Under the pieces are notes generated by a model. That model ran no database searches. It was given only the letters and a program-made list of their open reading frames with translations, and had not been told where the DNA came from. This document shows, piece after piece, positions 15,517 to 26,402 of a DNA stretch of 64,000 nucleotides. The position numbers and the translations under genes are program-made. Within the stretch, counting starts at the first letter, position 1. The number at the start of each line of letters is the position of its first letter. The stretch is from Defluviimonas aquaemixtae. Its GTDB lineage: Bacteria > Pseudomonadota > Alphaproteobacteria > Rhodobacterales > Rhodobacteraceae. The stretch spans positions 1,550,001 to 1,614,000 of the forward strand of contig NZ_OMOQ01000001.1 of assembly GCF_900302475.1 (NCBI RefSeq), given 5' to 3'.

Positions 15517-16905
15517 ATGGTACCGAAATTCGGAACGAGCGGGCTCCGGGGCCTGGTGAGTGAGCTCACCGACGGGCTGACGGCGGGCTATGTGAACGCC
15601 TTCCTGAAGTCGGTCCCGCATCGCGGCGTCCTCTTCATCGGACGCGACCTGCGCCCCTCCTCACTGCGCCTTGCCGAGGCGGTCGCAGCGGCGGCCGAAA
15701 ATCTCGGGCTCGACGTTGTCAATTGTGGTGCACTGCCGACCCCGGCTCTCGCGCTCGCCGCCATGTCGGCGGGCGCGCCGGCGGTGATGGTGACCGGCAG
15801 CCACATTCCGGCCGATCGCAACGGGCTGAAGTTCTACAAGGCCGATGGCGAAATCACGAAGGCCGACGAGGCCGCCATCCTCGCCTCCTACGACGGCGAG
15901 GCCGTTCTGCCATCTGCCCAACTCGGCGCCGCGCCCGATGCCCTTCAATCCTATGCCCGCCGCTATCTCGGCTACTTCGCGGCCGGCGCACTTTCCGGGC
16001 TGCGGGTCGGGCTGTGGCAACACAGCTCGGTCGCGCGCGACCTGCTCGACCGCGTGCTGATCGCTCTGGGGGCCGAAACCGTGCCCCTCGGTCGTTCGGA
16101 GGAATTCGTGCCTGTCGACACCGAAGCGGTCAGCGACGAGACGCGCGCACTGCTTGCGTCCTGGGCGCACGAGCACCGGCTCCACGCGATTGTCTCGACC
16201 GACGGCGACGCGGACCGGCCGCTCGTGGCGGATGCCGAAGGCCGGGTCGTCCCCGGTGACGTGCTGGGTCTTCTGACCGCATGGGCGCTCGGTGCAGGCA
16301 CGGTGGTGACGCCGCTTTCCTCGAACACGGTGATCGAGGCGTCCGGCGCGTTCGCGCAGGTGATCCGCACGCGGATCGGCTCGCCATACGTGATCGAGGC
16401 GATGGAGGTTGCGCGGCGCGATCCTGCGGCCCGCGTGGTCGGGTTCGAGGCGAATGGCGGCTTTCTTCTGGGCTTCGAGGCATCGGGCTCGGGCGACAGT
16501 GTGGCGCCCTTGATGACGCGTGATGCATTCCTGCCGATCCTCGTGCCGCTGGCCGAGACGGCCGCAAGGGGAAAGCCGCTGTCGGCACTCGTCGCCGCCC
16601 TGCCCAACCGTCACACGGCGAGCGACCGGCTTCAGAACACGCCGTCGGAACGCTCGTCAGACCTGGTTGCACGGCTTGCCGCAGATGCGGAGGAACGTGC
16701 CCGGTTCTTCGCCGGTCTTGGCCCCGAAACTGCGCTCGATCTGACCGACGGGCTCAGGGTGACCTTCACCTCCGGCGCGATCGCGCATCTACGACCGTCA
16801 GGCAATGCGCCGGAGCTCAGGGCCTATGCCGAGGCGAGCAGCGAGAGCAACGCCGCCGCGCTCGTTCGCCAGCTTCTGAGCCGTGCCCGAGACGCGCTTA
16901 CCTGA
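15517..16905 (+). CDS. Phosphomannomutase (alpha-D-phosphohexomutase family)
   Basis: A 462-residue enzyme interconverting mannose-6-P and mannose-1-P, the step before GDP-mannose synthesis by the divergent manC product. The phosphoserine loop is VTGSHIPADRNGLKF with Ser95, the metal loop is STDGDADRPLVAD, the sugar-binding loop is GFEANGGFLLG, and the phosphate-binding end is LRPSGNAPELRAYAE. It is not GlmM-like in length or loop sequence (GlmM has TASHNP). Phosphoglucomutase side activity is possible. The end overlaps the convergent C45 gene by 8 bases. Confidence 0.87.
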   Translation: MVPKFGTSGLRGLVSELTDGLTAGYVNAFLKSVPHRGVLFIGRDLRPSSLRLAEAVAAAAENLGLDVVNCGALPTPALALAAMSAGAPAVMVTGSHIPADRNGLKFYKADGEITKADEAAILASYDGEAVLPSAQLGAAPDALQSYARRYLGYFAAGALSGLRVGLWQHSSVARDLLDRVLIALGAETVPLGRSEEFVPVDTEAVSDETRALLASWAHEHRLHAIVSTDGDADRPLVADAEGRVVPGDVLGLLTAWALGAGTVVTPLSSNTVIEASGAFAQVIRTRIGSPYVIEAMEVARRDPAARVVGFEANGGFLLGFEASGSGDSVAPLMTRDAFLPILVPLAETAARGKPLSALVAALPNRHTASDRLQNTPSERSSDLVARLAADAEERARFFAGLGPETALDLTDGLRVTFTSGAIAHLRPSGNAPELRAYAEASSESNAAALVRQLLSRARDALT

Positions 16906-17890
16906 CCCCGATCCCAGCCGTCTCCGGCGTGTGAATGAGCCGCGTGCCTTCCTCGAATCCGTCCAGGGCGAAGCGCCAAGACGCACCGGGCCAGCGCAGT
17001 TCCATCTCACCCAGGCGTGGCCGGTAGACGGCGGTGTAGAGCGTTCCGAACCCGTGCGCGAAGGCGGTCGAATAGATCGGCGGGCGCAGGAAGGCCGAGA
17101 TGAACTTTTCCTGCGCTTCGATATGCAGCGTGAGGCGCTGTAGCAGGAAGCGCTCACGCTCCACCGTCGCGGTCATGCGCGCATGGCTCGTCCACTCCAC
17201 TGTCTTCTGGTGATTGGTGGCGACCGCCGCATGCGTGATCTCGGCCGGGCGGTCGGGCGCCATCATCACGGTCAGGAAGCGCCGCTTGGCGTCAAGGACG
17301 GTGACGTTGTAGCTCATATGCGTGGGGATGCGGGCGAGCGCCGCGCCCGCCTCTTCGGCGGTCTGGCAGGTCTGGAGCACGTAGCGCAGGATCAGCGGCA
17401 CGCCGAAGCCCTCCCCCACCACCTGTCTTCCACCGAAGGTCAGAGATGCGGCGAGCCCGGCGTCGTTCACGCCATCGACGAGCCCCCAGAGCCCGTCGCT
17501 CGTGCCGAGCACGCTCCGCCCCAGCCACTCCGTACGCATTATGATCCTGTCGAACGCGTTTGGATTGTAGTCGTAGTTCCGGACCATGACCGGCTCGCGC
17601 CCCGGCCAGATCGCCTGGCTGCATCCTGACAGGTAAGGCGGCGGGCGGTAGAAGGACAAAAACCGCGCTGCGTGATCTCCACCGCCGGCAAGCTCGCAGA
17701 GCCGGTCATAGAGCGGAACGAGTTCCGGCATGTGCTGCTTCAGCGCCTGCCGGCTTTCCCAGAAAGGCGGGCGCGGCCCCTCGCCCTCCCTCAGCCACCA
17801 GCGATGATAGTCCGGCCAATACTCGGCAAAAAGCGCGGCCCATTTCGGGCCGGGCTTGGGTTCGTCGATGGCGCGCCAGGGAAATTCCAT
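16898..17890 (-). CDS. C45-type Ntn hydrolase / acyltransferase (carcinine hydrolase, isopenicillin-N acyltransferase family)
   Basis: A 330-residue protein with the plan of C45 self-processing Ntn hydrolases. The likely nucleophile is Cys90 in LSGCSQAIW, followed by VMVRNYDYNP and GLWGLVDGVNDAGLAASL, then NVTVLDAKRRFLTV. Family members cut or form amide bonds of small amines and beta-lactam precursors. Here it is the last gene of a run with an ATP-grasp ligase, a decarboxylase and a nitrilase-type amidase, 47 bases after the ligase gene, so an amine amide is a likely substrate. I start it at 17890 (MEFPWRAIDE). Reading further upstream enters the preceding gene in another frame. Confidence 0.7.
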   Translation of the reverse strand: MEFPWRAIDEPKPGPKWAALFAEYWPDYHRWWLREGEGPRPPFWESRQALKQHMPELVPLYDRLCELAGGGDHAARFLSFYRPPPYLSGCSQAIWPGREPVMVRNYDYNPNAFDRIIMRTEWLGRSVLGTSDGLWGLVDGVNDAGLAASLTFGGRQVVGEGFGVPLILRYVLQTCQTAEEAGAALARIPTHMSYNVTVLDAKRRFLTVMMAPDRPAEITHAAVATNHQKTVEWTSHARMTATVERERFLLQRLTLHIEAQEKFISAFLRPPIYSTAFAHGFGTLYTAVYRPRLGEMELRWPGASWRFALDGFEEGTRLIHTPETAGIGVR

Positions 17891-17937
17891 GTCGGTCCGG
17901 TCCTCGGGTGCGGCGCACGCGCCGGACCCGGCATGGG

Positions 17938-19398
17938 CTACATAATCTTGAACACGGGATCGGCAAGCGCCGGACCGGCCTGCGCCATGTCCAGGGGCCG
18001 CGCGGCGAAGCCGTGCTTGATACCGTGGATCCACTTCTTGGCGCGCTCGTTGAGCTTGAAGCCCGCGGTCATCGAGCGTCCGCGCGTGACGAGAATGCCG
18101 AGATCGGCGCCTTCGTAGCGGTAGTCGCCGGGCTTCAGGATGCGCAGGAAGAAGGCCTCGTTCTCCGATTCCACGGCGCGGCGGTGATAGTCGAAGCGGT
18201 CGAAGACGACCCGGCCGTCCTCCAGCATCTTGTAGATGCCGGTCTGCGGCGCGTGGGTGACGATGTCGACGCTGTCCTCGGTATGCTTGATGACCATCTG
18301 GCTCCATGAATCGATCATGTCGGCATCGGCCCAGCGGGCGTTCAGCTCCTTGATGCCGAGGTGGAACTTCTTTCTCGAGAACTCGAGCAGATGGAACAGG
18401 AAGAGCGGCGCGTCGGCATGGGCGAAGGCGGCGTGGTTTGTCATTGATGACGCCCCGGTAATGCGCGGATTTAGCTCGCCAAGCCAGATGTCGCCGGTCT
18501 TCTTGTCGATCAGGAAATCAAGCTCGAAGTAGCCGCGATACCCCTCCTTGCGAAGCTGCTCGCCGAACTTGAAGGTCAGCTCCCGCGCCTTCTGGCGGGT
18601 CTTCGGCGGGAAGGCGGTCGAGAATATCTCGTTGCCGCACCAGCCGCCGCGATAGGGGGTCAGCTCCTTGAAGCCCACGAGCTCGGTCATCAGGGGCCCG
18701 ACGATCGTGCCCTCCTTCGTCGCGCAGGCTTCGATCGCCGATCCGCGGCAATCGATGCGCTTCATGATCTTGATCTCGCCTTCGCCGATGATCTCGTGTT
18801 CGTGGCGGCGGAAATCGGCCTCGGACTTGATGAAGAATGTGGTATGGCCGGAATCGCCGAACGCCGATTGCAGCACGAGGTCATGGCCGATCCCGGCCTT
18901 CTCGCACGTCTTGCGGAGGTCGTCGTAGCTCTTGACCTCGGCCAGCACGTTCGGCACCGAGGGCACACCGGCCTTGTTGCCGATCCGCACGGTCTCGATC
19001 TTGTTGTCCATATTGGTCCGGAGCTTCGCCTTCGGGAACCAGACCTCGGCGCCCAGCTCCTTGGCCAGCCGCTCGGTCTCCTCGTCGAACATCAGGAAGA
19101 CGAACTTCGGCTTGCCGCCGCGCCGCTTGATGAGGTCGATCACCTCCTTGTGCTGGAGGAGGTAGTTGTTGATCTCCTCGATCGACTGGAACTCCGCATG
19201 CGGCTGCTCGGACGGGCAGAACACGTTCGGATGACGGCCGTCATAGCAGTCGATATAGCATATGTATTTGAAATTCTTGCACCATTCGTCGATGCCCAAG
19301 AGGTTGAAATTGGTCGCCGAGATGAAATAGATCGGATCTTCGTTGCGGTGAAAATGCCGGCGGATTTCGGAGATGTTCTTCAGTTCGCCTTTAGCCAT
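17938..19398 (-). CDS. ATP-grasp ligase (annotated biotin-carboxylase-like)
   Basis: A 486-residue ATP-grasp enzyme. The nucleotide-binding part includes VLQSAFGDSGHTTFFI (about 175-190), a small-residue loop over the phosphates. The metal-binding core is FELDF (Glu292, Asp294) and GELNPRITG (Glu308, Asn310, Arg312). There is no biotin-carrier partner gene and no biotin carboxylase N-terminal signature, so carboxylation is unlikely. Ligation of a carboxylate to an amine is more plausible. The gene lies 15 bases after the decarboxylase gene and 47 before the C45 gene, a tight operon. The N-terminal ~130 residues (HFHRNEDPIYFISATNFN) are unlike common ATP-grasp enzymes known to me. Confidence 0.75.
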   Translation of the reverse strand: MAKGELKNISEIRRHFHRNEDPIYFISATNFNLLGIDEWCKNFKYICYIDCYDGRHPNVFCPSEQPHAEFQSIEEINNYLLQHKEVIDLIKRRGGKPKFVFLMFDEETERLAKELGAEVWFPKAKLRTNMDNKIETVRIGNKAGVPSVPNVLAEVKSYDDLRKTCEKAGIGHDLVLQSAFGDSGHTTFFIKSEADFRRHEHEIIGEGEIKIMKRIDCRGSAIEACATKEGTIVGPLMTELVGFKELTPYRGGWCGNEIFSTAFPPKTRQKARELTFKFGEQLRKEGYRGYFELDFLIDKKTGDIWLGELNPRITGASSMTNHAAFAHADAPLFLFHLLEFSRKKFHLGIKELNARWADADMIDSWSQMVIKHTEDSVDIVTHAPQTGIYKMLEDGRVVFDRFDYHRRAVESENEAFFLRILKPGDYRYEGADLGILVTRGRSMTAGFKLNERAKKWIHGIKHGFAARPLDMAQAGPALADPVFKIM

Positions 19399-19413
19399 TT
19401 GGTACTCCCCTGT

Positions 19414-22152
19414 TCATTCCGCCGCCTTCGGCAGCTTCTTCTTCAATAGTCCGTGCAGCGCCTCCTCGGTGAAGACGCGCAGGCCCAGGTCGGGCCGGTA
19501 GCCGTGGATCTCGTTCACGTCGAGCGCGCGCATGAAGGCGAGGATCTCCTCGCTCACCACCTGACCGGGCACGAGGATCGGGAAGCCAGGCGGATAGGGG
19601 ATGATGAATGAGGCCGACACGACCTCGCGCCCGCTTTCCATCGCCTCGCGGATGGAGCCGTCGAGCGCGAGATAGTCGCAGTTGTTCTCGTCGTAGCTGT
19701 AGAAGAACGCGGTCCGGATGTCGCCCTCCCCGGTCGTCGGGTCGCCGCAGAATGCGTCGTGGAAGCGCGAGAAGTCAGGCAGCGGCGGCAGATCCTCCAC
19801 CAGCGCCTTGACGCGGTGTTCGAAGGCGAGCCGCTCCATCTTCGAGGCATCGTCGAGCAGGTCGTCGAGTTCATGCGCGATCTCCACGAGAACCTCGATC
19901 AGGTAGGCGACCGAGGACCGCGTGGTGCCGATGTTCGTCATGAACAGCACGGTGTTGCGCGAGGTCTTGTTGATCTGGATGCCGTACTTGTCCATCAGGA
20001 TCTGGGTCTTGAACGTGTCGCCGTCCCAGCCGGTACCGCCGACGGCGAGCGTCACCCGCGTCGCGTCGAGCACGAACTCGTCCTGTTCCCAGCATTCCCA
20101 GATGTCGGTCCAGCCCTGATGGGGGTCGTAGTAGCTCTCGACCCCGCTTTCGCGGTACTCCTCGGGGATCATGTCGCCGGCGGTCAGGACCTTGAAGTAT
20201 TTCTGCAAGAGCGGATGGGTCGAGATCGCCTTGCGCATCGACATCGCCGCCTCGACCTGGCGCTGCACGAATTCGAACCCCTCGAGCTCGACCTGCCGCC
20301 GGCCGACATCTAGCGAGGCGATGATCTGGTAGTTCGGGCTGGTCGAGGTGTGGGTCATGTAGGCTTCATGGAACGATTGCTCGACCTCGCCCTTGAAGTC
20401 CTGATCGTTGACATGGATCATCGATCCCTGTCGGAGCGCGGTTAGCGTCTTGTGCGTCGACTGGGTCGCGTAGACCCGAACGCGCGCGTCGGGCGGCGGG
20501 ACGAGCCGCGCGTTCAGCAGCGCCTTCTCGTCGGCGTCTTTCAGCTTTTCTTGCTGCTTCTCCCAGGCCTTGGTCTGGTCGGGGCCTCTAAGCCGCTCCC
20601 TCAGCGCGTTGGCGGCGTTCATCGCGGTGCGCTGACGGTAAGTCGGACCGAACCGGGCGAAGGCGAACCAGGCCTCGTCCCAGAGGAAGATGAGGTCGGG
20701 CTTGACGGCGAGGCATTCCTCCATCACCCGCTCGACATTGTAGACCACGCCGTCGAAGGTGCAGTTCGTGAGCAGGAGCATCCGCACCTTATCGAGCTTG
20801 CCCGCCGCCTTCAGCTTCAGAAGCTGATGCTTGATTTCCCGAAGCGGCACCGCCCCGTACATCGAGTATTCGTTCAGGGGATAGCTGTCGAGATAGACGA
20901 CCTGCGCGCCCGCCAGCACCATGCCGTAGTGGTGCGACTTGTGGCAGTCGCGGTCCACCAGCACGATATCTCCCGGCCTGACAAGGGCTTGTACGACGAT
21001 CTTGTTGCAGGTCGAAGTGCCGTTCGTAGCGAAGAACGTCTGCTTCGAGCCGAAGGCGCGGGCAGCGAGTTCCTGGGCGCGTTTGATCGGCCCGTGCGGT
21101 TCGAGCAGGCTGTCGAGCCCGCCGCTCGTCGCCGAGGTCTCGGCGAGGAAGATGTTCGGCCCGTAGAACGCCCCCATGTCCTGGATCCAGTGCGAGCGCG
21201 AGATCGACTTGCCGCGGCTGATCGGCATAGCGTGAAAGACGCCGGTGGGCTGCTTGGAATACTCCACGAGCGCCGTGAAGAACGGCGTCTTGTAGCGGGA
21301 CTGCACCCCCCTCAGGATGTTGAGGTGCAATTCCATGAAGTCTTCCTGGTTGTAGAAGACGCGCCGGCAGATGCCGAGATCGAGCCCGGCGATCTCCTCC
21401 ACCGAGCGTTCGGTCACCAGATAGGCGTCAAGCTCCGGCCGCACCTTCGCGATCAGCCGGCAGAGCTCGGGCCCGTAATCCTCGGGCTTAAGCCCCTCGA
21501 TTCCCTCCGCGCCGCCGGCCCGGTTCAGGTAGCGCTTCAGGATCGGCAGTTCCGCCCGCGACTTCAGCGTCAGCCCGGGTCTCACCACGACCGCCTGGAC
21601 GTTGTGGTTGAAGAGCACGCCGATCAGTGCGTCCTCGAGGCTCGGCACCACGACGGTCTCGTAGACGAAGGGATCCTCGCTCCGCCGCATGCGCTGGACG
21701 TTGTTCCTGAGCCAGCGTTCCTGATGCTCGTTCAGGTCGTCGACGATGATCACCTCGAAATACGGGCGCGCCAGCGCCCGCGCTTCGGGCGGCAGCATCG
21801 CCTCGTCCTCGTGATCCTCGGCATCGGCCGCGTCGCGGTCGAGCGGGATGTGCCGCCGGCGATAGGCCCCGGTCGTAAGCGCCCGCGTGACCCGGTGCAC
21901 GCCAAAGGCGAGGTCGTCGAGATTGCCATGCTCGAATTGGCGGCGGAGGTGGTCGAAGGCCTGAGTGCCTGGAAAGGCCCAATAGCGCTCGATGAGCGCG
22001 AGCGCATCGAAAAGTTCGTTGACCTGCTTGTTGAGCGCCGCCGCCTTGCGGCCGGATGGATCGCGACTAAGTTCCCCCGTCGCGGCGCGCAGGGCGCTCC
22101 AGCGATCCGAGCGGAGCTGAATGGCAGAATAGTAGTCGTTGACCGATTGCAT
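19414..22152 (-). CDS. Oversized Orn/Lys/Arg-type PLP decarboxylase
   Basis: A fold-type-I PLP enzyme of 912 residues, against about 710-755 for LdcI, SpeC or AdiA. After a non-family N-terminal ~130 residues comes the wing-like region (YFEVIIVDDLNEHQ). The catalytic domain follows, with NGTSTCNK (377-384), LVDRDCHKSHHYG, FLWDEAWFAF (Asp492 to the PLP nitrogen) and YATQSTHKTL with the PLP lysine at 568. About 50 residues rich in Lys, Glu and Gln (510-557) are inserted just before the lysine. The substrate (arginine, ornithine, lysine or another amino acid) cannot be read out. It is 71 bases after the amidase gene and 15 before the ligase gene. Confidence 0.85.
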   Translation of the reverse strand: MQSVNDYYSAIQLRSDRWSALRAATGELSRDPSGRKAAALNKQVNELFDALALIERYWAFPGTQAFDHLRRQFEHGNLDDLAFGVHRVTRALTTGAYRRRHIPLDRDAADAEDHEDEAMLPPEARALARPYFEVIIVDDLNEHQERWLRNNVQRMRRSEDPFVYETVVVPSLEDALIGVLFNHNVQAVVVRPGLTLKSRAELPILKRYLNRAGGAEGIEGLKPEDYGPELCRLIAKVRPELDAYLVTERSVEEIAGLDLGICRRVFYNQEDFMELHLNILRGVQSRYKTPFFTALVEYSKQPTGVFHAMPISRGKSISRSHWIQDMGAFYGPNIFLAETSATSGGLDSLLEPHGPIKRAQELAARAFGSKQTFFATNGTSTCNKIVVQALVRPGDIVLVDRDCHKSHHYGMVLAGAQVVYLDSYPLNEYSMYGAVPLREIKHQLLKLKAAGKLDKVRMLLLTNCTFDGVVYNVERVMEECLAVKPDLIFLWDEAWFAFARFGPTYRQRTAMNAANALRERLRGPDQTKAWEKQQEKLKDADEKALLNARLVPPPDARVRVYATQSTHKTLTALRQGSMIHVNDQDFKGEVEQSFHEAYMTHTSTSPNYQIIASLDVGRRQVELEGFEFVQRQVEAAMSMRKAISTHPLLQKYFKVLTAGDMIPEEYRESGVESYYDPHQGWTDIWECWEQDEFVLDATRVTLAVGGTGWDGDTFKTQILMDKYGIQINKTSRNTVLFMTNIGTTRSSVAYLIEVLVEIAHELDDLLDDASKMERLAFEHRVKALVEDLPPLPDFSRFHDAFCGDPTTGEGDIRTAFFYSYDENNCDYLALDGSIREAMESGREVVSASFIIPYPPGFPILVPGQVVSEEILAFMRALDVNEIHGYRPDLGLRVFTEEALHGLLKKKLPKAAE

Positions 22153-22223
22153 GTTCTCGACCCTGTTGTGACGGCGGCCGAGAGCTGATCCGGAATACGT
22201 GGATTTCGTATCGCTCCGAGCGC

Positions 22224-23213
22224 TCAGCCGCTCGCTGTTCTGTCCGCCTTGGGCGGCTGGTCATCCGTCTCGGTCTGAACCGAGTGGAACGCCATCTGAT
22301 GTCCAGCATGCGCGATCCCATCGGTTCCCACAACCGGAAACTGAAGCCCCGCGCGCGAGCCTTGGCGCGGAATTTCTAAGGGTCCCAACGTCTTGAGATA
22401 CGCGTCTGCGGCGCTCGCCCGGTCGTAGACCGAAAAATCCACCGACCGGTCGCGGAAGCTTTTCAACACCTGGCCCAGTCCCTTGAACCCGGTTTCGCGC
22501 TGACGACGCACTTGATCGATATCGATTTCGATCGGGAACATGTCCTCCTGCCCCGCCGACTGGTGCAGCACCGTGGCCGCAGGATCGACGACCAGCGAAC
22601 GGCCGACCCCGCCCGCGCCGAGCCCGTTCACGTCGATGATATAGCTTTGGAACTGCGCGGCCGTGGCGCGCGTGATCGCAAGCTCCGCGTCACGGTCCGT
22701 CGTTCCGGTCAGGACCGGGTGCAGCAGGACCTCGACCCCCGCGCTGGTCAGCTGCCGCGTGGTCTCGGGGAACCAGATATCGTAGCAGATCGACAGCCCG
22801 AAGCGGCCGACACTCGGCACGTCGAAGATGCAGAACTCGGTGCCCGCCTCGACCTCGGACTCGTAGGGCCGGAACGGGAACATCTTGCGGTAGCGCGTGA
22901 CGACATGACCCGAAGGGTCGATGACGGCCGCGGTGTTAAAGATGCGGCCATCCTCCGTGCGCTCGAACATCGAGCCCGGGATCAGCCAGACCCCGTGCCG
23001 CTTCGCGGCCGCGCGGAACTGGTCGAGCGCCTCATTCTCGAAGGGCTGGACGAACCGCGTGAGCGGCCCGTAGGGCGACAATTCGGAAAACAGGACCATC
23101 TGGGTCCAGGGAAAGCGCATCATCAGAATGTCGAGGCGATGGATCATGCCTTCGACGTTCGAGTTGAGGGCGCTGACATGCATCTGCACGCCGGCAATCG
23201 CAAAGGGAGTCAT
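22224..23213 (-). CDS. Carbon-nitrogen hydrolase (nitrilase superfamily amidase)
   Basis: A 329-residue member of the nitrilase superfamily. The triad is visible: Glu44 in LFSELSP, Lys110 in RYRKMFPF and Cys143 in SICYDIWFPE. It hydrolyses, or could transfer, the acyl group of an amide or carbamoyl amine. N-carbamoylputrescine amidase (AguB) belongs to the same superfamily and would suit a decarboxylase neighbour, but AguB is shorter and has a different sequence around its Cys. The extra C-terminal ~60 residues (after LGPLEIP) are unusual. It is the first gene of the tight four-gene run, with a GGAG ribosome-binding site. Confidence 0.8.
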   Translation of the reverse strand: MTPFAIAGVQMHVSALNSNVEGMIHRLDILMMRFPWTQMVLFSELSPYGPLTRFVQPFENEALDQFRAAAKRHGVWLIPGSMFERTEDGRIFNTAAVIDPSGHVVTRYRKMFPFRPYESEVEAGTEFCIFDVPSVGRFGLSICYDIWFPETTRQLTSAGVEVLLHPVLTGTTDRDAELAITRATAAQFQSYIIDVNGLGAGGVGRSLVVDPAATVLHQSAGQEDMFPIEIDIDQVRRQRETGFKGLGQVLKSFRDRSVDFSVYDRASAADAYLKTLGPLEIPRQGSRAGLQFPVVGTDGIAHAGHQMAFHSVQTETDDQPPKADRTASG

Positions 23214-23479
23214 TTCAACGTCTCCGTCGCCCGGCTGGCCGCGATGGACCAGCGATGCGGGCCGTTCTCTGTTCGGGCCCCTCCATATCCGTTAATCACG
23301 GCGACGAAAAGCCAATCGCGGAGAAGTGTGGCTCCGCTGCACGCGTCGGATCTGCAGGGTCCCGGGCTTCAACTGTCGATCGGGTCGGAGTTTCAATGGC
23401 CGCCGAACCCGCGAGATCGCCGGCCGCGCCGGCCCGATCGAGGACTGGTTCAGCAAGCACCCTGTCAACCGCGTCCGGT

Positions 23480-25678
23480 TCATTCGAGGATCGTCAGAAG
23501 GTTCGCGAAATCATCGGTCCAGATGCGCCCGCCATCGGATGGCAGCGGCTGCCACCGGCCGTCCCGCGCGAGCGGTCCAAGCGCCGCTTCGCTGCGCGAG
23601 ATCAGGACAACGCGCGAGGCAGTGTCGCCGGGATCGATCTCGGTATTGCCCTGGTAGGTTTGGATGCGCGCCTGAAGCCCCAGCGCTTCGGCGCTCCGCG
23701 ACAAGGGCCGCTGGATCGCGTAGTAGCGGTTCGAGATGTGATAGACGAGCAGCCCGTCCGGCGACAGCCGGTCAAGGTAAAGCTGCATCGCCTCATGGGT
23801 CGTCAGATGCATCGGCACCGCATCCGAGCCATAGGCGTCGATGATGAGGATGTCGAAACGCAAGCCCTCCTGCCCTGCAAGCACCATGCGCGCATCGCCG
23901 AGATGGGTGGGCGCGTCGGACGCGCAGTTCGACATGAAGGTGAAAAGTTCGGAATTGCGCGCGATCTCGTCGACCACGCGGTCAATCTCGTAGAAATGCC
24001 ATTCCTGCCCGTCCTGCCGGTAGCAGGACAGCGCGCCGACGCCCAGCCCGACGATGCCCACTCGCCCGGCCATTTGGCCCGGTTCCGAGGTCAGCACCTG
24101 CGCCATGGGCCCATTCGGGTGGTAGTAGAACAAAGGCTCGGGCCGCGGCGCGCCGTAGTCGGTCAGGCGCTCGGCGCCGTGGATCGTCGTGCCGTTCGCG
24201 TAGTGCCGCATCCCGTCCTCGTCGGTCACCCGGTGCGTGCCGAAGAAACTGCGGTCGCGGAAGCTGTCGCCGTCGGGAATGACGTAGGTGCCCGACACCA
24301 TGACAAGCCCCGCCGCCAGCGCCGCCGCCGGCAGCGTCGTGCGCAGCGCGATTGCGGCGAAGGCGGCCATCGCGAACATGATGAGCTTCAGTGTCAGCCA
24401 ATCGTCGATCTGCACGGCGCGTGCGGCCAGAATCAACGGCAGCGCCGCCAGCGCGCCCCCGATCAGCCCCTTGCGGATAAGGGCCCGTGTGAGCCGCATC
24501 TGGGCGCTGAGAACGAGCGTGGCGGCCAGAAGCGTTGTCACGCCGCCTTCGGCGAGGCTGTTGAAGATGATGGGCGCGAGGACCGAGTTGAAGAGCCCGC
24601 CAAGCGCTCCCCCCACCGACATCACGAGGTAGAAGAGCGTCAGATGCGCGCCTGAGGGCCGCGCTGCATACAGCTTCTGATGCGCGAAGAGCGCCACAAT
24701 GAAGAAGCTGACGATCAGCGCGCCAACCCCCCAAAGCTCCAGATGTGCGCCTGCGAGGCCGGTGAAGACAGCCCCGAGCCAGCCGAGCGCGCCGAGATAG
24801 GCGATGCGCAGCACGCCAGGCGGCAGGAGCGACCGGCGCGTGAAGGTCAGGACGAAGCTCAGGAGATACAGCGCGAGCGGGATCACCCAGACGAGCGGGA
24901 TCGCCCCGATATCGGTCGAGATCTTGGTGGTCACCGCCAGCATCATCGACGAGGGAACGAAGGCCAGTAGGACCCAGCGCCCGATCGCGGCGGGGCCGGG
25001 CCGCGCCTCGGGCGCCGCGGGCTCGGCATGGGTCACAAAGTCGCGGCCACGGGCGGCCAGAAGGCCGGATGACAGGAGAAACACGCCCAGCAACGCGAAC
25101 CCGGCGGCCCATCCCCGCCCGATCTCGGCCGCGCCGAACAGCGGCTCGGCGACCAGCGGAAATGCCAGAAGGGCGACAAGCGAACCAAGATTGCTCGCAC
25201 CGTAGAGAAAATACGGGTCCTCCGCCGAAGGCCCGTCGCTGCGCGCATACCACGACTGCAACAGCGGCGCGTTCGCCGACAGGACCGCGAAGGGCACGCC
25301 CACGCCGAGCCCGAACAGCATCAGCGTTTGCCAGACCGCCGGCCGCGCGGCGTCGTACTGCCAGCCCTCGGGAATGGCGAGCGGCAGGAATGCGAGCGCA
25401 CCGCCCCAAAGCAACAGATGGAGCGCAAGCTGCGCGCGAACGGGCAGATGCCGCGCGACGACATGCGCGTAGAGATAGCCGCCGATCAGCACCGTCTGGA
25501 AGAACAGCATCGCCGTCGTCCAGACCGCGGGAGCGCCGCCGATCTGCGGCAGCACAATCTTGGCAAAGAGCGGCTGGACGAAGAACAGAAGCGATGCGCT
25601 GAGAAATATCGTGCCGGTGAAGACGACGGGCGCAAGAACGCCTGGCCGTGCGGCGCTGTCAGTATCGGTCGCGTGCAT
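23480..25678 (-). CDS. Fused MFS-like membrane domain / spermidine synthase-like protein
   Basis: A 732-residue fusion. Residues about 15-450 hold some 12 hydrophobic segments (from PVVFTGTIFLSASLLFFVQP), typical of the membrane half of these fusions. Residues about 500-732 form a spermidine-synthase-like Rossmann domain: VGIVGLGVGALSCY, HFYEIDRVVDEIA and LIIDAYGSDAVPMHLTTHE, with an Asp-x-Tyr in place of the DxxD aminopropyl-transfer site. Function of the family is not established; an aminopropyl or methyl transfer at the membrane is possible. It lies 266 bases upstream of the amidase gene on the same strand, so it may be a separate unit. Confidence 0.8.
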   Translation of the reverse strand: MHATDTDSAARPGVLAPVVFTGTIFLSASLLFFVQPLFAKIVLPQIGGAPAVWTTAMLFFQTVLIGGYLYAHVVARHLPVRAQLALHLLLWGGALAFLPLAIPEGWQYDAARPAVWQTLMLFGLGVGVPFAVLSANAPLLQSWYARSDGPSAEDPYFLYGASNLGSLVALLAFPLVAEPLFGAAEIGRGWAAGFALLGVFLLSSGLLAARGRDFVTHAEPAAPEARPGPAAIGRWVLLAFVPSSMMLAVTTKISTDIGAIPLVWVIPLALYLLSFVLTFTRRSLLPPGVLRIAYLGALGWLGAVFTGLAGAHLELWGVGALIVSFFIVALFAHQKLYAARPSGAHLTLFYLVMSVGGALGGLFNSVLAPIIFNSLAEGGVTTLLAATLVLSAQMRLTRALIRKGLIGGALAALPLILAARAVQIDDWLTLKLIMFAMAAFAAIALRTTLPAAALAAGLVMVSGTYVIPDGDSFRDRSFFGTHRVTDEDGMRHYANGTTIHGAERLTDYGAPRPEPLFYYHPNGPMAQVLTSEPGQMAGRVGIVGLGVGALSCYRQDGQEWHFYEIDRVVDEIARNSELFTFMSNCASDAPTHLGDARMVLAGQEGLRFDILIIDAYGSDAVPMHLTTHEAMQLYLDRLSPDGLLVYHISNRYYAIQRPLSRSAEALGLQARIQTYQGNTEIDPGDTASRVVLISRSEAALGPLARDGRWQPLPSDGGRIWTDDFANLLTILE

Positions 25679-25841
25679 GTATTGCCCCGGGATTCGTGGT
25701 CAATGCACAGAAAATCCCGTGAATGGGTTAAGAATGGGGCGAAATCGCGGTTTCGGCGCGCCCACTGTCGATGCCGGGTCCGCGCCTTGACGGCGCACTA
25801 CGCGCGATGCACCGTTCGTCCGACCGATGCAAAGGACCGCC

Positions 25842-26402
25842 ATGACCCGTCTCGCCCGCACGCTCGCCGCCATCGACGCGGCCAATGACGCCGATCCCGA
25901 CCGTTCCGAAGGCACGCCCGCCGCGCGGCTTTACGGCGAGCGCATGACGGAAGAGCTCGAACGGCTTCGCCCCGGCGCTTCGGACGAGTTGCGCATCGCC
26001 GCACGCGGTCAGCATGTCGAACGCTGGACCTCGCCCCGCGCCGGTTATCCCGAGGGCCGTAAGGGCTATCTCGACTGGCGCCGCGACCTCGCCCAGTATC
26101 ACGCGCGCCGCGTGGGCGAGATCATGTCGGCGCAAGGTTACGACCCCGAGAGCATCGACCGGGTAGGCCGCATGATCCGCAAGGAGGGCATAAAGCGCGA
26201 CGACGAGGTGCAGGCGCTCGAGGACGTGATCTGCTTCACTTTCCTTAGGTGGTATTTTCAACCCTTCGCCGACGGACGCGACACGGAGGAGCTTGAGCGA
26301 ATCGTCACCCGCACCGCCCGCAAGATGTCCGCCGAAGCCCGCGCCCGCGCCCTGGTCGAGTTCGACTTGCCTGAACCTTTCGCCGCCGCATTCGCGTCTT
26401 GA
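25842..26402 (+). CDS. DUF4202 family protein
   Basis: A 186-residue cytoplasmic protein of a conserved family without known function. Recognisable stretches are ARGQHVERWTSPRAGYPEGR, a WRRDLAQYHARRV helix, IRKEGIKRDDEVQALEDVIC and FTFLRWYFQPFA. The conserved His and acidic residues are arranged rather like a small metal-dependent phosphohydrolase, though that is only an impression. The start at 25842 has AAAGGA seven bases upstream; the ATG at 25827 has none. Monocistronic, divergent from the MFS/spermidine synthase gene. Confidence 0.78.
   Translation: MTRLARTLAAIDAANDADPDRSEGTPAARLYGERMTEELERLRPGASDELRIAARGQHVERWTSPRAGYPEGRKGYLDWRRDLAQYHARRVGEIMSAQGYDPESIDRVGRMIRKEGIKRDDEVQALEDVICFTFLRWYFQPFADGRDTEELERIVTRTARKMSAEARARALVEFDLPEPFAAAFAS

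Follow-up and report, generated by a model that had tools for sequence, protein, structure and literature searches.

The locus described here raises the question of which reactions are carried out by four closely spaced genes of Defluviimonas aquaemixtae, and whether these genes act together at all. They lie in a window of 64,000 nucleotides, which is the whole stretch of DNA that was analysed (contig NZ_OMOQ01000001.1, positions 1,550,001 to 1,614,000). Using Pfam and NCBIfam matches, we named these four genes and a fifth one upstream, all of them on the minus strand. NIT (23213-22224, 329 amino acids (aa)) encodes a nitrilase-superfamily amidase (PF00795 CN_hydrolase, 7.6e-29) and is followed after 71 bases by DC (22152-19414, 912 aa), a pyridoxal phosphate (PLP) decarboxylase of the Orn/Lys/Arg fold (PF01276 OKR_DC_1, 2.8e-78, 263.9 bits, cut-off 27). 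GRASP (19398-17938, 486 aa), an ATP-grasp ligase, starts 15 bases further on (NF005096 'biotin carboxylase' (PRK06524), 764.6 bits, cut-off 684), and C45 (17890-16898, 330 aa), an N-terminal nucleophile (Ntn) amidase/acyltransferase, another 47 bases downstream (NF040521, 170.8 bits, cut-off 85). The source genome (4.2 Mb, 99.94% complete) has a single match to DC. The four genes belong to one conserved module, which is widespread and apparently undescribed, and we tentatively propose that it acts on an amide conjugate of an omega-amino acid.

The gene neighborhood was compared at 108 GRASP loci, consisting of 80 loci from a scan of GTDB species genomes (L040-L119), 8 from a phylum sample (L032-L039), 8 from a class sample (L155-L162) and 12 from plasmids (L132-L143). 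For the GTDB scan a GRASP alignment served as query; the ligase is common, since at least 565 of 588 pattern matches encode a GRASP relative (tblastn E <= 1e-3), and the best 80 of these at least 565 relatives were kept. The flanks comprised 10 kb in most of the 108 loci and were shorter in some, and gene order was counted by tblastn only in the 90 loci whose flanks reach 4.5 kb or more on either side of GRASP. All four genes occurred together in 77 of these 90 loci, in the order NIT-DC-GRASP-C45 (75 loci) or NIT-GRASP-C45-DC (2 loci). Eight further loci contain DC-GRASP-C45 without NIT; in one of them, L136, all that is annotated of C45 is a remnant of 83 aa in front of an insertion sequence (IS) element. 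DC is absent from three loci with GRASP-C45 and NIT on the opposite strand and from one locus with NIT-GRASP-C45, and a single locus has GRASP alone; GRASP and C45 thus co-occur in 89 of the 90. One of the three loci with NIT on the opposite strand, L140, lies on a plasmid that bears DC elsewhere (L174). At L037, which is cut by a contig end, C45 and NIT run opposite to DC and GRASP.

In the phylum sample GRASP orthologues above 500 bits were present in 9 of 299 genomes, 6 of them above the curated cut-off (147 genomes including weaker matches), and DC was present in 13, including all 9 with a GRASP orthologue. GRASP was found in 11 of 385 genomes of the class sample and in 29 of 149 of the family sample; the distribution of the module is therefore patchy. 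It is located on chromosomes as well as on rhizobial plasmids. Independent evidence comes from the fact that the set is kept together in varied orders and with varied neighbors in Rhodobacterales, rhizobia, Cupriavidus and other families of the phylum. NIT, DC, GRASP and C45 are a real conserved module, and their clustering is far beyond chance. This confirms an earlier note on this DNA, which had grouped the four tight genes and had named scattered homologues as the result that would speak against it; the homologues are clustered. The same note knew of no described pathway with exactly these genes, and searches of open-licence papers by gene set or family name likewise gave no published description of the module.

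GRASP is annotated elsewhere as a biotin carboxylase. It passes the NF005096 cut-off, shares the ATP-grasp fold and the ATP/Mg residues with that enzyme, and a fold search with its predicted structure returned biotin carboxylase and PurK as the nearest folds. Residues Q294, V295 and E296 of E. coli AccC, which we take to be the bicarbonate/base residues, are kept in none of 112 GRASP relatives, and R338, presumably on the biotin side, is kept in none of 25. Although family name and fold point to a biotin carboxylase, this assignment was rejected on account of the replaced residues. A further difference is that the four genes include neither a carrier nor a carboxyltransferase gene; the rest of the genome was not searched for such partners. 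None of the relatives checked retains the biotin-carboxylase residues. GRASP is more probably an amide ligase, albeit one with 10% identity to PylC and other ATP-grasp amide ligases.

In NIT the triad Glu44-Lys110-Cys143 is intact and identical in 97 of 97 relatives, which places it in the nitrilase superfamily. Its best equivalog, AguB (TIGR03381), scores 67.6 bits against a cut-off of 410.25, far from an assignment as N-carbamoylputrescine amidase. C45 belongs to its family by the curated cut-off, an invariant nucleophile, Cys90, and the predicted Ntn fold of isopenicillin N acyltransferase, although it is only 13% identical to that enzyme and to other C45 enzymes.

The decarboxylase belongs to family PF01276 by its score and by the PLP lysine within the sequence STHK. 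This residue, Lys568, was identified by alignment with CadA, AdiA and SpeF and is present in 112 of 112 relatives; H567 and D492 are invariant among the relatives checked, and N607 and Q609 are kept in 111 of 112. DC shares with CadA/LdcI, AdiA and SpeF the architecture of a fold-type-I PLP decarboxylase, the S-x-HK lysine and a YPPG motif. It differs from them by a longer N-terminal part, about 280 residues ahead of the catalytic domain, which is a trait of the subfamily, and by three exchanges. Q864 replaces the Glu of the PGE motif common to the three E. coli enzymes (SGE in AdiA), resulting in PGQ in 114 of 114 subfamily copies. R574, six residues past the PLP lysine, stands in place of Ser (112 of 112 copies), and R313 in place of Gly (110 of 110). 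We used the Glu of the PGE motif as a mark of decarboxylases with basic substrates, which is our own marker and no published criterion, and DC lacks it. The three exchanges, at candidate pocket positions, fit the loss of a site for a cationic side chain. The nearest solved relative, PDB 9n0n/9n0o, matches DC over residues 14-900 of 912 (E ~6e-250); a review lists it as Rv2531c, a decarboxylase of unknown activity (PMC12910592).

The surroundings of DC relatives without a nearby GRASP gene point in the same direction. Eleven such loci were analyzed, 4 from the phylum sample and 7 chosen from plasmid matches. All 4 genomes of the phylum sample with DC but no GRASP orthologue have a gene for an Asp-Al_Ex (AspT) exchanger directly after DC, and in total the exchanger is located beside DC in 9 of the 11 loci (L163, L164, L165, L166 and L169-L173), two of which (L169, L170) also contain an aspartate 4-decarboxylase gene. 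The genes adiA, cadA and speF of E. coli are clustered with antiporter or transporter genes. The aspartate:alanine exchanger family also covers succinate and glutamate exporters (PMC9527358). The pairing with AspT points to an acidic amino acid as substrate of these DC relatives. At L170 a gene for an HdeA/HdeB-type chaperone is present too, and the AspT-paired branch is possibly an acid-stress system. Because of the Gln in place of the shared Glu, the new Arg residues and the AspT genes in 9 of 11 ligase-less loci, we favor an acidic substrate for DC, glutamate or aspartate, which would give gamma-aminobutyrate (GABA) or beta-alanine, over Arg, Orn or Lys.

The recurrent neighbors identified around the module are genes of the glutamate/GABA type; polyamine synthases besides the MFS gene described below were not searched for. 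Among the 108 GRASP loci these neighbors are a TAXI-TRAP transporter (39 loci), GabT (28), a UspF-like protein (26), a PuuR-like XRE-cupin regulator (25; 134.6 bits, under its cut-off of 211), the PRK07483 transaminase (22) and a glutamate-synthase-like gene of the flavin mononucleotide type (20). In several roseobacters the module sits between the Usp and transaminase genes of a TAXI/TRAP-type row. A TAXI system of the related bacterium Cereibacter sphaeroides, with three genes downstream, is the Na-dependent importer of L-glutamate, as demonstrated by deletion and complementation (PMC12632250), and a Vibrio TAXI protein binds L-glutamate (PMC11574862). By analogy with these two systems, the transporters linked to the module may take up glutamate. 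In the source genome a row of genes for a TAXI substrate-binding protein, a TRAP permease, Usp, the PRK07483 transaminase and a BKACE-like protein (named from its sequence) lies apart from the module on contig C3 (L190:5777-12034); it is perhaps the counterpart of the row of five genes reported for glutamate uptake in Cereibacter sphaeroides.

DC is missing from the loci of Shinella and two records like it (L134, L140, L141), where GRASP and C45 are embedded in an arginine-type row with genes for an agmatinase-type hydrolase, a 5-guanidino-2-oxopentanoate decarboxylase, an aldehyde dehydrogenase, a D-amino-acid dehydrogenase and a racemase, which presumably leads from arginine to GABA. The record of L140 and L174 (NZ_CP084753.1) carries the unverified name Roseateles sp. 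XES5; its proteins in this region are 88-96% identical to Shinella proteins, and it probably represents a plasmid of rhizobia. Within the family of the window, a distant clade has NIT, C45 and GRASP without DC (L193-L195) or, in a record cut by a contig end, GRASP and C45 (L196); two of these four loci adjoin GabT, the PuuR-like regulator and an aldehyde dehydrogenase. The NIT-C45-GRASP copy at L193:5863-17745 lies beside a dipeptidase-like gene (named from its sequence) and a peptide-type ABC transporter, and these neighbors suggest a peptide-like substrate.

The module also occurs in two other settings. At L035 an ectoine-degradation operon encloses all four genes, with doeB/doeA and an Lrp gene on one side and doeC/doeD/eutB on the other, and all of these share a strand; the neighbors at L173/L176 are eutB/eutC/doeA/doeB/ehuABCD. 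The genes for a succinate-semialdehyde dehydrogenase (SSADH) and a class III transaminase at L035 and L173 were considered as GABA genes and rejected as such; by their neighbors they belong to ectoine degradation. On Rhizobium plasmids (L132, L137, L139) a peptide-type ABC transporter, an amidase and a serine hydrolase are encoded after DC, GRASP and C45. On the Rhizobium leguminosarum plasmid of L132 (7246-14471) the row adjoins nifHDKEN, with the start of DC about 1 kb from nifH. On that of L136 (12141-30000) the distance from the row to FixA/FixB-type and nifA/nifB genes is about 6-12 kb; from GRASP to nifA it is about 10 kb. IS elements follow GRASP at L136, and near the module another ATP-grasp protein (L136:7503-8780), which has the C-terminal domain of L-amino-acid ligases (LAL_C2), is encoded beside a glutamate dehydrogenase gene.

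Our preferred explanation, to which we give somewhat less than an even chance, is a four-gene conjugation module built around an omega-amino acid. DC would strip the alpha-carboxylate of L-glutamate or L-aspartate to yield GABA or beta-alanine, and GRASP would use ATP to join a partner by an amide bond to this omega-amino acid or to a closely linked carboxylate. C45, matured by a predicted self-cleavage before Cys90, and NIT would cut or transfer amide bonds, and for this reason the module would both make and break the conjugate. The freed omega-amino acid could enter central metabolism via transaminases such as GabT or PRK07483. The gene set, its conservation, the catalytic residues, the predicted folds of GRASP and C45 and the loss of the biotin-carboxylase residues were shown by the analysis; the acidic substrate, the GABA or beta-alanine product and the amide ligation are inferred. 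The proposal is the smallest hypothesis that covers most of the facts, and several loci without DC adjoin another route to GABA, or GabT.

In the insect black-ebony-tan cycle an aspartate decarboxylase, a beta-alanyl-amine ligase and a C45 hydrolase act in succession. If DC is acidic, the module would show the same succession of decarboxylase, amide ligase and C45 amidase, a possible parallel. The differences are that Ebony is similar to nonribosomal peptide synthetases whereas the ligase of the module is of the ATP-grasp type, and that the module contains an extra nitrilase. A bacterial counterpart of this cycle, built from other enzymes and with an Orn/Lys/Arg fold re-tuned to acidic amino acids, is a rather unlikely form of the proposal. 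The ATP-grasp ligase would attach the GABA or beta-alanine so formed to an amine or an amino acid, from which the C45 amidase would release it. Such a cycle would be used next to glutamate-type uptake genes in roseobacters, within an ectoine operon and on the plasmids of legume rhizobia.

Several observations weigh against the omega-amino-acid proposal. To our knowledge, the characterized members of the DC fold all act on basic amino acids, and an acidic-substrate DC would be the first of this fold; the family matches of DC name Lys/Arg/Orn decarboxylases, and a position of R313, R574 and Q864 in the substrate pocket is conjectural. No AspT gene was found in any of the 108 GRASP loci, and therefore the exchanger argument rests on DC relatives that are 48-51% identical to the DC of the window; two of the 11 ligase-less loci (L174, L175) have neither AspT nor aspartate 4-decarboxylase. 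The fold of GRASP does not tell carboxylases from amide ligases. The context counts are not independent, since 80 of the 108 stem from one scan as its top matches and are mostly roseobacters. A link to GABA is missing from some of the loci without DC, neither GabT nor the arginine route being seen at L142 (Cupriavidus), L162, L193 and L196, and the transaminase and SSADH genes of L035 and L173 point to aspartate or diaminobutyrate, not to GABA. The PuuR-like regulator and the copy inside the ectoine operon still favor a basic or diamine substrate.

These last two facts belong to the main rival explanation, a protected catabolism of diamines, which we consider unlikely but not far-fetched. DC would convert Orn, Lys, Arg or 2,4-diaminobutyrate to a diamine, GRASP would acylate one amine in the manner of PuuA, a class III transaminase would oxidize the other end, and C45 or NIT would deprotect the product to GABA or a homologue. 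Membership of DC in OKR_DC_1 fits, as do the neighboring PuuR-like, PRK07483 and GabT genes and, since diaminobutyrate is an intermediate of ectoine degradation, the position of L035; at L175, moreover, 2.7 kb that include an IS element separate ectB from DC. The regulator and a logic of ligation followed by hydrolysis also recall the Puu pathway, the gamma-glutamyl-putrescine route. In contrast to that pathway, the module uses an ATP-grasp ligase and hydrolases of other families; a glutamine-synthetase-type PuuA is missing from the cluster, the rest of the genome not having been searched for it. Against this rival speak the DC subfamily, in which the Glu that AdiA, CadA and SpeF have in PGE is absent and Arg stands at two more positions, and the pairing of most ligase-less DCs with AspT. 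The PRK07483 transaminase, moreover, was found in just 22 of 108 loci and not in the window; in the source genome it is on another contig.

The biosynthesis of a small secreted or stored amide, such as an osmolyte, signal or nodule metabolite, built by DC and GRASP and finished or recycled by C45 or NIT, is improbable. It would suit the patchy distribution, the osmolyte operon at L035 and the vicinity of nifH and a peptide-type ABC transporter at L132, but most recurrent neighbors identified are uptake and catabolic genes, and two amide-cutting enzymes would be unusual for a purely biosynthetic cluster. Very improbable is a GRASP that carboxylates or carbamoylates an amine to give a product cleaved by NIT and C45, as in urea-carboxylase or AguB-like schemes: the nearest GRASP folds and the best equivalog of NIT agree with it, whereas the bicarbonate and base residues are changed in all 112 relatives and the AguB score is well under its cut-off. 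That chance placed the genes side by side without a common pathway can practically be dismissed. The 8 loci without NIT, the 4 without DC and the one with GRASP alone would suit it; the conserved clustering, in which the same genes stay together across different orders and distant families, contradicts it.

The fifth gene (25678-23480, 732 aa) ends 266 bases upstream of NIT and encodes a protein similar to fusions of a major facilitator superfamily (MFS) transporter and spermidine synthase (NF037959, 43.1 bits, cut-off 40). A gene for a DUF4202 protein (PF13875) lies divergently to it at 25827-26402 on the plus strand. A search of the 108 GRASP loci revealed no copy of the MFS/spermidine-synthase gene, and we rejected it as a partner of the module. 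The earlier note had described five genes on one strand with the gaps given here, and this description is accurate. The grouping of all five is without support, and the idea that the fifth protein could add or export a polyamine unit falls with the same count. The note's sequence of decarboxylation, ligation and hydrolysis is compatible with the enzyme families and their conserved catalytic residues. Its suggestion of Arg, Orn or Lys as DC substrate is weakened and probably wrong, given Q864, the added Arg residues, the AspT-paired relatives and the glutamate/GABA-type neighbors.

At present the module is annotated as a biotin carboxylase plus, in places, an ornithine decarboxylase. The omega-amino-acid proposal provides a testable guess for an uncharacterized DC subfamily that has a solved structure. 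Should DC take glutamate or aspartate, a textbook enzyme fold would gain a wider range of substrates, and the amide handled by the module would, if the proposal is true, add a new node to the nitrogen metabolism of marine bacteria and nodules.

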